Shown here: positions 5,892 through 9,714 of the stretch, in pieces | How the letters are laid out: each line of letters starts with the position of its first letter | Numbering within the stretch: position 1 is the first letter of the stretch | Assembly: GCA_017544125.1 (NCBI GenBank) | Contig: JAFYET010000117.1 | Span: forward strand, 1-11,226 | DNA from: Ruminococcus sp. | GTDB lineage: Bacteria > Bacillota > Clostridia > Oscillospirales > Ruminococcaceae | DNA: 11,226 bases | Direction: 5' to 3' | Notes under the pieces: model-generated | Database searches by the model: none | What the model was told of the DNA's origin: nothing | What the model saw: only the letters and a program-made list of their open reading frames with translations | Translations under genes and position numbers: made by a program

Positions 5892-5898
5892 AGAGGTG
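5892..5898 (+). promoter_or_regulatory. Ribosome binding site that selects GTG 5905
   Basis: AGAGGTG lies six bases before GTG 5905. An in-frame GTG at 5896 is part of this site and so is an unlikely start. Starting at 5905 gives a clean signal peptide beginning MKKIVKK. Confidence 0.7.
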
Positions 5899-5904
5899 AT
5901 TCAT

Positions 5905-6750
5905 GTGAAAAAGATAGTAAAAAAAACAGTAACAATTTTTGCGGCTGTGGTAATGCTCCTGTCAGGTGCCTTGGGTTCCCTTCCGGCAGGAATCACTGTA
6001 TTTGCTGACGGCGACAGAGTTTATAACTACTGCTTCTATGAGGAGTATTACACAGACTATGAAGAAGTTGAAAAGAAAGTCACCCTCTATTATCTGGAAG
6101 ATCCCATAGCCGAAATGGGTTACAGCATTCCCGCCGATCTGCCCACTTCATATAACATTCCCGAATGGGAAGACTATCTATGGTACTCAGGTTATATCAC
6201 TTTCTATATTGACAGGGATGAGTTTAATAACGGATCGATAACAATGCGTGCAAGTGAGAAAAAGCGAGTCACCAAAGCCTTTCGCTCAAGCGATTATTAT
6301 GTAGAGGACGAGTTCTACGGGCTTGACCACACTAATAAGAAGATGATCCATTACACTGTAAAATTCATCAACTATGCCAACACACTTCGTGAGCAGAAGG
6401 TAAAGGAATGGGTCAGTGAGAACATCACCCCGGGTATGACAGACAGAGAAAAAGCTGAAAAAGTAGTGAGAAAAACCTCCTACGGTGCTTACAACGGCGG
6501 TGTTGACTGCATACTCGGCACTTCGGACGGCGACTGTATCTCCTATTCCACTTCCGCTCTATACTTTTTCAAAGAACTTGGTCTGCCGGCAAGAATAAGG
6601 ACAGCCTATTTCACCTTGACAGGTGACAAGATGCACCTCGGCAGAATATCCAATCACCATAACAACTGGGTGATCCTGGACGGAGATATTTACGAAGTGG
6701 AATGTACTCCAACGGGCAACAAGACAACAGAGGGTCCCACTGCCGACTAG
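5905..6750 (+). CDS. Secreted transglutaminase-like protein, N-terminal part ending at an in-frame TAG
   Basis: This 281-residue product begins with a signal peptide: basic MKKIVKK, a hydrophobic core (about 8-25), and likely cleavage after VFA near residue 34. A tyrosine-rich region (about 39-150) of unknown fold follows. A transglutaminase-like cysteine-protease core occupies about 165-270: ITPGMTDREKAEKVV, then C211 in GDCISYSTSALYFFKELG, H251 in NHHNNWVILDG, and E266 in YEVECTP. The family usually has a Cys-His-Asp triad with HAWN and VDPT motifs; here the acid is Glu and the tryptophan-asparagine pair is altered. Such domains act as wall- or protein-directed amidases, peptidases or crosslinkers; which applies here is unknown. 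The TAG is followed, in the same frame, by 428 more sense codons ending in a dockerin. Isoleucine codons are mixed ATA/ATC/ATT rather than mostly ATA. The isolated fragment could still fold, but it lacks the anchoring domain. Confidence 0.8.
   Translation: MKKIVKKTVTIFAAVVMLLSGALGSLPAGITVFADGDRVYNYCFYEEYYTDYEEVEKKVTLYYLEDPIAEMGYSIPADLPTSYNIPEWEDYLWYSGYITFYIDRDEFNNGSITMRASEKKRVTKAFRSSDYYVEDEFYGLDHTNKKMIHYTVKFINYANTLREQKVKEWVSENITPGMTDREKAEKVVRKTSYGAYNGGVDCILGTSDGDCISYSTSALYFFKELGLPARIRTAYFTLTGDKMHLGRISNHHNNWVILDGDIYEVECTPTGNKTTEGPTAD
6748..6750 (+). other. In-frame amber codon interrupting the transglutaminase-dockerin gene
   Basis: Codon 282 counted from 5905 is TAG, in the context GCC GAC TAG ATT ATC GAC. 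The reading frame is unchanged on both sides, so a single substitution from TAT or TAC (Tyr), or from CAG, GAG or AAG, explains it. The next base is A, not the contexts best known for leaky termination. Confidence 0.9.
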
Positions 6751-8037
6751 ATTATCGACATCAGTTTAAACAACGTCTCCGAAAGAACATCGGGCTTGAT
6801 GACCGATGGCAGATTTGCCTATTTCCTGCTTGGCGACGGAACTCTTGAGCTTTACGATATCATCAATCTTGACTATAAGCTCCCCGAAGTGTGGACTATT
6901 CCTACAAGCACAGTCATCAATGGGAAAACCTACCGTATCAGTCGACTGGGGCCTGCTTGCTGGCTTACTCACAGTAATAGCACTCTCACCTACAGCAATA
7001 CATCTTTTTCTGGCGTAAAGCAGATCGTGATACCCAAGGGTGTGACCTTTGACGATGATTATTACAGCTGCCTTGACAGCTATGTATTCCCCGATCTTGA
7101 AAAAGTAACATTTAACGAGGATATCGACTCTATCTGCTCGGCGGATCTGGACTGTGCTGTTGATGCTACCAATTGTGTGATCGATCGGATGACTATTGAA
7201 GAAACAAATTCGATCTACAGGATCCGAACAGGAAATGCGACCTACTATGCCAAGAGCTTCGGTCAGGATGTTCTTGACGCTTATGAGGAAGATAAGAATA
7301 CTAATAACGGAAGCTATTATCTGTGTGCCGTGAATGATCCAAATGCCTGTGATCTGACTGTAACGGTGCCTTCCCCCGACAACGGTTCACTCAAAATCAG
7401 CAGTAATGACCGACAAGCTACGAATGCCTGTGTATCTCCTCTGAGCAAAGAGGGCAGAACATACCGCTTCCCGGGCATGGCTGCCGGCAATTACACAGTA
7501 AAATACACCAATGATAAGGGTGAGGAAAAGAGCTTTCCGCTTGTACTTTCCGCAGGTAAAAAAGTATATAATATCACGAACAATATGCTTTACAGCACTT
7601 CCTTCGTAATCAACGGCTCATTCTATATAGGCGATATTATCTCGGATATGGTGATCACCAACTCACAAGGAGATAATATACCTTTTGAGCTTTCAAAGCG
7701 CATATATAACGGATTCTCCGTCAACAACCTATCCGACGGCACTCAAAAGCTCTATGTCAAGCTGCCCGGTTATCCGACTGCAAGTGTAACCGTGAAGATC
7801 ACAAACGGCAAGCCCTCCTCAGAGCAGTACGAGGTCGTTGTGAACAAATACGGCGATGTTGACGGTGACAACAAAATGAATATAGCAGATGTTCTCCTCA
7901 TACGTCAAAAGCTCGCAGGGTGGAACGTCGATATCAACTTAGATGCTGCCGATGTAAACGGTGATAACAAAGTCGATATACTCGATGTTCTTCTCATGCG
8001 TCAGAGCCTTGCTGGCTGGAATGTGACGTTTGCATGA
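6751..8037 (+). pseudogene. C-terminal part of the interrupted gene: repeat region plus type I dockerin
   Basis: This segment continues the transglutaminase-like protein in the same frame after the TAG. The first ATG, at 6796, has no convincing ribosome site and no signal peptide, so independent production of an exported protein is unlikely. Residue numbers count through the stop. About 300-415 has features of degenerate BspA-like repeats (VINGKTYRISRLG, FSGVKQIVIPKGV, FPDLEKVTFNEDI). About 470-640 looks like beta-sandwich modules. Residues 649-710 form a type I dockerin of two calcium-loop/helix repeats, GDVDGDNKMNIADVLLIRQ and ADVNGDNKVDILDVLLMRQ, each followed by a LAGWNV segment. Dockerins plug into cohesins on a scaffold, so the intact product would have been held on a cellulosome-like complex. 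The dockerin has no damaged calcium ligands, so decay would be recent. ATC dominates isoleucine codons, unlike the neighbours. Joined product: 710 residues. Confidence 0.78.
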
Positions 8038-8043
8038 TAACTT

Positions 8044-8073
8044 AAAGCGCCGGGCTTCTGTCGGCGCTTTTTT
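8044..8073 (+). terminator. Intrinsic terminator after the dockerin gene
   Basis: AAAGCGCCG (8044-8052) pairs perfectly with CGGCGCTTT (8062-8070) across a nine-base loop, and the Ts run on to 8073. It starts seven bases after the TGA and separates this operon from the next. Confidence 0.92.
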
Positions 8074-8159: not shown

Positions 8160-8681
8160 ATGTTTAAAGTTATCTTTTCAAATATAGCAGGGTTCGATGC
8201 GGTGATATTCTTAGCGGGCATAGTCAATGCGGTGGTGTTTTACTTCGCATTTGCAGCGGCTAATGAGCTTTACCGCAAAATGCACCTTACCGTTTTCGTG
8301 CCTGATAATGATGACTCAAAGGCGCAGGCTGAGGCTGCGGTAAAAGGCCTCACCGAAACAGAGCTTACCGAGATGCGCACCCGCTGCGGAAAGCTGTATA
8401 GCCTCTTTGTAAACCTTACGGGCATATTCCCGCTTCTGGGTATCTTAGGCACCGTTGCCTCGCTTTTGTCGGTAATGGACGATATGTCAAATGCGCAGAA
8501 TAACTTCTACGCCGCCCTTACATCTACTTTCTGGGGGCTGGTGTTTGCGATAATATTCAAGTTTTTAGACGGCGTTATCTCAGCGAAGATAGAGGATAAC
8601 GAAAAGACCGTGGCTCTCTTCTTACAGCGCAACTGGTCGGCAAGAAAGAGCGGCAAAAAGGACGAGGAAGAAGCGTCATGA
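8160..8681 (+). CDS. MotA/TolQ/ExbB-type proton-channel subunit (short form)
   Basis: Members of this superfamily form a pentamer around two ExbD/TolR/MotB-type subunits and turn ion flow into rotation. The 173-residue protein has three membrane helices: about 11-33; 81-106 carrying the family signature PLLGILGTVASLL (P91, G94, G97, T98); and 117-140 with ALTSTFWGLVFAIIF, whose T121 and T123 stand where ExbB and TolQ have their channel threonine. A polar cytoplasmic loop (about 38-80) joins helices 1 and 2, and the lysine-rich tail (158-173) is cytoplasmic. It is smaller than the ~230-residue ExbB/TolQ and much smaller than MotA or ZorA. AGGTG sits seven bases before the ATG. The stop overlaps the next start as ATGA, the tight coupling expected for subunits of one complex. 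Confidence 0.87.
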   Translation: MFKVIFSNIAGFDAVIFLAGIVNAVVFYFAFAAANELYRKMHLTVFVPDNDDSKAQAEAAVKGLTETELTEMRTRCGKLYSLFVNLTGIFPLLGILGTVASLLSVMDDMSNAQNNFYAALTSTFWGLVFAIIFKFLDGVISAKIEDNEKTVALFLQRNWSARKSGKKDEEEAS

Positions 8682-9190
8682 AGCAAAAGGGCATAGTGAT
8701 AGAGCTCACCTCGCTGCTCGATGTCATACTTATAATGCTCTTCTTTGTGATGATGCAGTCAAGCAGGCAGAGCGAGAGCTACCGTGAACAGGCCGATGAG
8801 GAGATAGCGGCAGCGCAGGCTCAGACCGAGCAGGCAAAGCTCGACCTCGAGGTGGAAAAGCGTAAGGAGCAGATGCTCAAAGACGCACTCACAGGCTTTG
8901 AGGGCGGCGAGCTTTATGAGCTGAAGATAAACTTTGATGACAGCTCTGACGTGCTGGTGCTTTCATTCGGCGGGCAGGAGCTTGACAGGCTGGGCTTTGA
9001 GCAGACAGCCGAGATAGAAAAAGCTGTAATGGGCATAGATATACCCGAGGGCTCGGCGGTTTTGGCAGCGGTCATATATGACGGCAACAAGGTGCTCTAC
9101 CGTGATATGCAAAGCATAAGGGCTGCCCTTGACAAGCTGTCAAAGGAAAACGATAATATCTATATAGGCTATATCGACACATCAAATTAG
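8678..9190 (+). CDS. ExbD/TolR-type stator subunit with a coiled-coil insert
   Basis: The 170-residue protein has a short cytoplasmic N-terminus, one membrane helix (about 10-28) and an extracytoplasmic remainder. IELTSLLDVILIMLFFVMM matches the ExbD/TolR pattern, and D15 corresponds to the protonatable aspartate that carries ions through the channel. Residues about 33-70 are rich in E, Q, A and K with few prolines and look like an alpha-helical coiled coil, longer than the linker in ExbD or TolR. Residues about 80-168 fit the small ExbD periplasmic fold: strand VLVLSFGG, helix FEQTAEIEKAVMG, strand SAVLAAVIYDG, helix DMQSIRAALDKLSK and strand IYIGYID. There is no OmpA-like peptidoglycan domain, so it is not MotB or ZorB. 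It overlaps the channel gene by four bases, and its TAG runs into the next gene's ribosome site. Confidence 0.82.
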   Translation: MKQKGIVIELTSLLDVILIMLFFVMMQSSRQSESYREQADEEIAAAQAQTEQAKLDLEVEKRKEQMLKDALTGFEGGELYELKINFDDSSDVLVLSFGGQELDRLGFEQTAEIEKAVMGIDIPEGSAVLAAVIYDGNKVLYRDMQSIRAALDKLSKENDNIYIGYIDTSN

Positions 9191-9204
9191 GAGGGTGAAA
9201 AACA

Positions 9205-9660
9205 ATGGCAAAGAACTACGATGAAAGAAACGGCAAAAAGGAAAAAGAGAAGAAAAAGAAAAAGGGCAAGGGTCTTGGGCTGCTCATAATACTGCTCCTG
9301 CTTTTAGCTCTTTTGTGGCTGATGAATTATTTAGGGCTGGGCTTTGGCTTCGGCAAGGGCGACGGCGGCTCGTCAAGCGGCAGCGACAGTGCGGCTGTGA
9401 GCGCATCTGATGATAACACCGACACCACAAAGACCACATATACCGTGACCGTAAGCGGCTCGACCTACAAGTTTAACGGCGAAGAGCTTACACTTGATGA
9501 CCTCAAGACCAAGCTGGGTGAGCTTGACAAGGCAAAATCGGTAGTCGAGATAAAGGACGACGGCGCAGTTGAAAACGCTATGGCAGATGCCAAGAGCGCT
9601 GTCGAGGGCTTAGGGCTTTCGGTAGTCAACACCGCCGATGACACAAGCAGCGAGGCATAA
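9205..9660 (+). CDS. Single-pass protein with an ExbD-like extracytoplasmic domain, third gene of the motor operon
   Basis: The 151-residue protein has a very basic cytoplasmic N-terminus (lysine-rich, about 10-22), one leucine-rich helix (24-43), a Gly/Ser/Asp linker (about 44-77) and a compact domain (78-143). That domain, TYTVTVSGSTYKFNGEELT then LDDLKTKLGEL, VVEIKDD, ENAMADAKSAVEGLGLSVV, follows the strand-strand-helix-strand-helix-strand order of the ExbD/TolR periplasmic domain, including the NGEELTLDDLK turn typical of ExbD proteins. Unlike the preceding gene product, its membrane helix has no acidic residue, so it should not carry ions. It may be a force-receiving or stator-anchoring partner. 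GGAGGG lies nine bases before the ATG. The domain match is by eye and is the least certain part; the membrane topology is clear. Confidence 0.68.
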   Translation: MAKNYDERNGKKEKEKKKKKGKGLGLLIILLLLLALLWLMNYLGLGFGFGKGDGGSSSGSDSAAVSASDDNTDTTKTTYTVTVSGSTYKFNGEELTLDDLKTKLGELDKAKSVVEIKDDGAVENAMADAKSAVEGLGLSVVNTADDTSSEA

Positions 9661-9682: not shown

Positions 9683-9714
9683 CCCCTTTCCCTGCTATGG
9701 GGAGAGGGGCTTTT
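9683..9714 (+). terminator. Intrinsic terminator after the motor operon
   Basis: A ten-base stem, CCCCTTTCCC (9683-9692) with GGGAGAGGGG (9700-9709) and one G-T pair, has a seven-base loop and is followed by CTTTTATT. The flanking AAAAG (9674-9678) can pair with CTTTT (9710-9714) across a bulge. Confidence 0.78.

Follow-up and report, generated by a model that had tools for sequence, protein, structure and literature searches.

Can a membrane motor of the MotA/TolQ/ExbB type work in a cell without an outer membrane? Whether and how Ton orthologues work in thick-walled Gram-positive cells remains to be tested, according to the available part of a 2022 review (PMC9389320), and the accessible text of a 2025 study holds that Ton systems in monoderms are likely non-functional (PMC12204202). 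The question is raised anew by three genes, here called g1, g2 and g3 and together the cassette, which lie in a stretch of 11,226 nucleotides (nt) from Ruminococcus sp. (GenBank assembly GCA_017544125.1, contig JAFYET010000117.1; hereafter the window). In Gram-positive Ruminococcus-group bacteria of the gut, the cassette probably encodes an ion-driven membrane motor related to the flagellar motor and to the motors of outer-membrane transport. It provides a concrete case from an apparently monoderm host, with both motor subunits, invariant coupling residues, purifying selection and sequenced named strains among its carriers, some of which encode no other protein of the superfamily. If a motor of this kind does work without an outer membrane, this would bear on the ancestral job of MotA/TolQ/ExbB-type machines.

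Protein families and coupling residues

Counts over loci refer to 97 distinct loci selected by g1: the window, 19 loci from a survey of the host family, 75 named loci drawn from the best 80 of 464 g1 relatives and two loci from a survey of the class. Five named loci, L102, L122, L127, L133 and L150, were taken to be duplicates of unnamed ones and left out before counting. We compared g1 with Pfam, a profile search that the original prediction had named beforehand as a possible refutation of its own placement of the gene. The search assigned g1 to the MotA/TolQ/ExbB superfamily, with 47.4 bits for PF01618 against a cut-off of 22.9. The g1 family profile also matched the chains of MotA, PomA, ExbB and TolQ among solved structures (best E-value 2.3e-6), and two threonines at the positions of the ExbB and TolQ pore threonines are invariant (Table 1). 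In a g1 tree of 40 rows, built without ZorA, AglR and GldL and with L023 and L028 left out (wrong frames), the proteins of the cassette formed a group of moderate support (85/61), apart from MotA (99/98) and from ExbB/TolQ (100/100). A lysine serves as a signature of this group (Table 1), and g1 is a short protein.

The profile placement of g2, likewise named beforehand as a possible refutation, also came out in favour of the prediction. The match of g2 to PF02472 was barely above the threshold (E-value 1.4e-5, 25.6 versus 25.4 bits, residues 4-73), and the same family was found at E <= 0.01 in 52 out of 67 relatives. The predicted ExbD-type helix with D15 was recovered, and D15 aligns with D25 of ExbD. 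Judged from its sequence, g2 carries the ExbD/TolR membrane helix with the position of the ion-binding Asp. Among solved structures, the g2 profile reached ExbD and TolR chains only at E-values of 0.2-0.8, and a profile-profile comparison of the g2 outer domain with the ExbD/TolR periplasmic domain gave no signal. In three of the ten relatives scanned (L040, L050 and L051), PF02472 matches extend into the outer region. No match of g2 to an OmpA-type family was found in Pfam at E <= 1.

The third gene had been described as a further membrane protein. It does have one membrane helix, but g3 is more than that: the AlphaFold2 model shows an ExbD/TolR fold for the outer domain. When this model was compared with known structures, ranks 1-6 were all ExbD/TolR domains (TolR at ranks 2 and 6), and the closest to the head of g3 was the periplasmic domain of ExbD. 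Profile comparison of the outer domain with the ExbD/TolR periplasmic domain likewise scored above shuffled controls. No Pfam match to g3 lay above a cut-off, the whole g3 profile found chiefly helix and low-complexity matches among solved structures, and its comparison with the g2 profile yielded nothing at full length and a probability of 6.5% for the outer domains alone. At none of the 97 loci does the core of the g3 helix contain Asp or Glu, so that the ion-binding Asp of ExbD/TolR is absent from it. An S...H motif in the helix is a trait of TonB and TolA; within the first 60 residues of g3, this motif occurred at only 5 of the 97 loci. The linker of g3 is short, and no effector domain follows the head. 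On the basis of the model and the profile comparison, the most fitting description of g3 is that of an ExbD-type head with a membrane anchor of its own. A five-gene variant was also observed (L050, 9747-12867; L051, 9700-12785), in which g1, g2 and g3 are joined by another g3 paralogue and by a protein of 322-355 amino acids (aa) that looks secreted; the latter protein of L050 matches PF12869 (tRNA_anti-like).

Table 1. Positions of the cassette genes, of residues and domains discussed in the text and of the flanking terminators in the window (pLDDT, predicted local distance difference test)
Feature	Positions	Strand	Basis
g1, MotA/TolQ/ExbB-type ring protein, 173 aa	8160..8681	+	PF01618, E-value 2.1e-12
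g1 Thr98 codon	8451..8453	+	Aligned to E. coli ExbB T148 / TolQ T145; invariant 97/97
g1 Thr123 codon	8526..8528	+	Aligned to E. coli ExbB T181 / TolQ T178; invariant 97/97
g1 Lys134 codon, group signature	8559..8561	+	Val in E. coli ExbB and TolQ; invariant 97/97
g2, ExbD-type, 170 aa: predicted ion-binding helix, long charged stretch, outer domain	8678..9190	+	PF02472
g2 Asp15 codon	8720..8722	+	Aligned to E. coli ExbD D25 and the equivalent TolR Asp; invariant 97/97
g3, single membrane helix without acidic residue and predicted ExbD/TolR-type outer domain, 151 aa	9205..9660	+	Model, profile comparison, alignment
g3 outer domain (residues 77-142)	9433..9630	+	AlphaFold2 model, blocks of about 77-84 pLDDT
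Terminator of upstream dockerin gene; left cassette border	8045..8073 (about)	+	Hairpin and T run; -16.3 kcal/mol, z -3.2
Cassette terminator	9683..9709	+	Terminator scan; -20.3 kcal/mol, z -2.8

Conservation, carriers and surroundings of the cassette

The order g1-g2-g3 on one strand was found at 96 out of 97 loci, which is more than chance. The gap between g2 and g3 did not exceed 79 nt at 94 loci; some starts of open reading frames (ORFs) were placed too far upstream, which produces false overlaps in the gene-spacing tables. The exceptions in layout were L137 (390 nt), L172 (5.6 kb) and L043, where about 16 kb separate g2-g3 from a g1 on the opposite strand. At L043 (2272-3334 and 16524-19382), g2-g3 adjoin an AroQ-like frame, and g1 stands beside a CE2/GDSL-type esterase gene. 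The protein distance matrices of the genes were correlated (g1-g2, 0.79; g1-g3, 0.55; g2-g3, 0.74), whereas the maxima of 200 permutations were 0.20, 0.14 and 0.15, respectively. We further computed the ratio of nonsynonymous to synonymous substitution rates (dN/dS) of the window's genes against six relatives, and obtained 0.036-0.129 for g1, 0.080-0.155 for g2 and 0.135-0.223 for g3. Medians for further random pairs were 0.057, 0.136 and 0.192 (21, 17 and 21 values); dS exceeded 1 in many pairs, and single values are therefore rough. No dN/dS value points to decay, and the sequence comparisons show purifying selection on all three genes.

A g3 survey of the class suffered from too much noise (matches in 76 of 391 genomes, mainly weak ones in long ORFs), and the g2 profile was used in its place to determine the spread of the cassette. 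In the host family, the cassette was present in 19 of 197 genomes; its 20 copies scored at E <= 2.5e-25, and the match that came next at 5.7e-5. Among 391 genomes drawn from the class, clear matches outside the family were confined to G557 and G251, both with g1-g2-g3, and among 398 genomes drawn from the phylum, the window's own genome gave the single clear match. Seven weak matches accompanied it, and the six that were inspected resemble, as read from sequence, ordinary ExbD proteins beside ExbB-like ORFs. Named carriers among the best 80 of 464 g1 relatives include Ruminococcus bicirculans 80/3, R. albus KH2T6 and AR67, R. flavefaciens XPD3002 and Ruminococcus sp. FC2018; in the same set, the nearest named g1 to that of the window (95%) belongs to an uncultured Ruminococcus. 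One genome, G096, carries two diverged cassettes on separate contigs (L049 and L050). A cassette also occurs in a metagenome assembly labelled Alistipes senegalensis (L164), most likely a mis-binned or mislabelled assembly.

We examined seven carrier genomes for markers of an outer membrane. TonB-dependent receptors (PF00593), Omp85 (PF01103) and TonB_C (PF03544) were each found in 0/7 carriers, while the 14 control genomes included 3, 7 and 3 positives, respectively. The carriers thus look monoderm, in agreement with the original prediction. The accompanying claim that no flagellar context is visible holds for the window but fails for the genome, in which a MotA/MotB-like locus lies elsewhere, among genes that read as flagellar-type. 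A second, stronger PF01618 match was detected in four of the seven carriers, including the window's genome; in the remaining three (G065, G158 and the R. bicirculans genome), the cassette's g1 was the only PF01618 protein.

Within the window, the three ORFs are tightly packed and followed by a terminator, as had been noted. g1 and g2 share an ATGA overlap of four bases, and g3 is preceded by a GGAGG site. A second hairpin, 5' of g1, was missed by the terminator scan because of its 9-nt loop; with terminators 5' and 3', the cassette looks bounded at both ends. The promoter that had been proposed was not recovered: a consensus scan found no site 5' of g1, and its single match, inside g2, compares with 1.4 expected by chance. 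An Rfam scan of the window gave no match above a gathering score, and PHROGs, used as a check for phage origin, gave none at E <= 0.01. Just 5' of the cassette (5896-8037), a transglutaminase-like ORF (weak, 21.8 bits versus a cut-off of 23) is arranged head to tail with a dockerin ORF. At the corresponding place, L033 has two ORFs, of 403 and 630 aa; the two ORFs of the window may therefore belong to genes of a different build.

Neighbours of 96 loci (L043 left out) were named by reading their sequences, without a profile scan. The commonest were metallophosphoesterase-like (29), patatin-like (25), M20 peptidase-like (24) and ROK-type repressor-like (16) genes. First neighbours fell into 38 groups downstream (93 loci) and 58 upstream (92 loci). 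No gene was universal, and a function based on neighbours was rejected accordingly. A patatin-like gene begins no more than 60 nt downstream of the cassette, on its strand, at 20 loci (for example, L105, 9787-10635) and possibly forms one transcript with it in that lineage; these loci seem to share one neighbourhood, and we therefore give them little weight.

Proposed mechanism and alternative explanations

Motors of this superfamily have a ring of five-fold symmetry around a two-fold axle, and rotation is thought to be driven by ion flow; the heads of ExbD form a dynamic dimer, which in its open state binds the TonB D-box, and wall sacculi are bound by ExbD as a soluble construct (available parts of PMC9389320 and PMC12905483). 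By homology, five g1 proteins would encircle a dimer of g2. H+ or Na+ would pass the positions of Thr98 and Thr123 and bind Asp15, and this binding would turn g2 stepwise against g1. We place g3 in the membrane beside the ring with its N-terminus inside, where the short linker would hold the modelled head close to the outer face of the membrane. Because ExbD/TolR heads dimerise, capture a partner peptide and, in the form of a soluble construct, bind sacculi, the head of g3, alone or paired with the outer domain of g2, would most likely transmit motion to the wall, at its inner face, or to a protein on the wall side whose gene lies elsewhere. We consider the chance slightly better than even that the cassette is such a self-contained MotA/TolQ/ExbB-ExbD/TolR motor in a monoderm-looking host, with g3 as the part that transmits motion to the wall or a partner there. 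A more specific proposal, which we make tentatively and regard as falling somewhat short of an even chance, is a wall-acting single-membrane motor in which the jobs of ExbD are split between g2, an ion-binding helix on a long stalk, and g3, a gripping head without the Asp. The cassette would then represent a third branch of the family, beside flagellar stators and outer-membrane energisers.

The short linkers and the lack of an effector domain beyond the head of g3 could also indicate a gated ion channel or envelope sensor, in which the g1-g2 pore opens when the heads of g3 or g2 feel the distance or tension of the wall, and the ion flux signals or is used directly without mechanical work. The absence of a conserved neighbour to drive would fit such a device. 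However, the full set of coupling residues of work-producing relatives is invariant, and the well-studied relatives in the superfamily are energisers; we therefore regard this explanation as unlikely, although it survives better than the others.

Less probable still, the same motor might energise one surface process of fibre degraders, namely adhesion, secretion or the wall display of dockerin-type proteins. We counted dockerin matches (recorded up to about 31 per genome) and found at least one in 14/19 cassette genomes versus 69/178 genomes without the cassette (one-sided Fisher test, P = 0.0037), and at least five in 11/19 versus 26/178 (P = 6.5e-5), both uncorrected for kinship. However, 5 of the 19 carriers had no dockerin match, and 26 dockerin-rich genomes lacked the cassette.

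Zorya is a defence system in which a stand-alone ring and axle pair, ZorAB, is joined by the partner genes ZorC/D/E. The cassette shares the stand-alone arrangement, and the g1 of one copy, L049, matches ZorA weakly (E-value 0.0032, 14.4 bits). The surroundings of that copy (8421-19774) include SspB-like and HerA-like defence-type genes; the PADLOC scan of flanks covered this locus only. However, the window's three proteins gave no match to the ZorA and ZorB models of PADLOC at E <= 1, g1 is short, and no ZorC/D/E-like gene was seen in the window, which makes a Zorya-type motor very improbable.

We assign a very small chance to a vestigial Ton system, as proposed for monoderm Ton genes in the accessible text of PMC12204202; superfamily genes do occur here in a host that looks monoderm and showed neither TonB nor its receptors, but the low dN/dS values of all three genes, the invariant coupling residues and the stable gene order speak against decay. 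Least probable of all is an accessory flagellar stator: the stronger PF01618 matches in four carriers, which in the window's genome lie among genes that read as flagellar-type, would allow it, but the three carriers without another PF01618 protein suggest that the cassette occurs without a flagellum, and neither the missing OmpA-type match of g2 nor the position of g1 in the tree fits a stator.

Comparison with known systems

The expectation that no named system has this three-gene make-up was upheld in Pfam, NCBIfam, PADLOC and PHROGs. Among the matches listed for the open-licence PubMed Central literature, no title or abstract start described the cassette. In a 2025 study that covers 379 proteins of 205 genomes, ZorAB is named a remote homologue, and a generic group includes proteins of unknown function; Ruminococcus does not appear in the available portion of its main text (PMC12505986). 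The novelty of the cassette is that of a variant arrangement within a known machine family.

The MotAB stator resembles the cassette in that the g1 profile matches MotA and PomA chains, and differs from it in the OmpA-type domain, for which g2 shows no match, and in the length and grouping of g1. TolQR of the Tol-Pal system shares the pore threonines and the Asp, and its TolR heads rank high against the head of g3. However, the seven carriers show no outer-membrane marker, and tolA, tolB and pal were not seen in or beside the cassette, the genomes themselves not having been searched for TolB or Pal. ExbBD shares the same residues and has the nearest head, whereas the cassette has a second head protein without the Asp, and the seven carriers gave no match to TonB_C, to TonB-dependent receptors or to Omp85.

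The nearest known layout is that of AglRQS, the gliding motor of Myxococcus xanthus. Its host is diderm and supplies Glt partners, and AglQ and AglS both match PF02472 (available part of PMC3169522), whereas the helix of g3 contains no acidic residue and g3 has no Pfam match above a cut-off. In AglRQS, one MotA/TolQ/ExbB gene is followed by two ExbD/TolR-type genes, with neither TonB nor TolA in the set (same part of PMC3169522); the cassette would have this layout if g3 is counted by its modelled fold.
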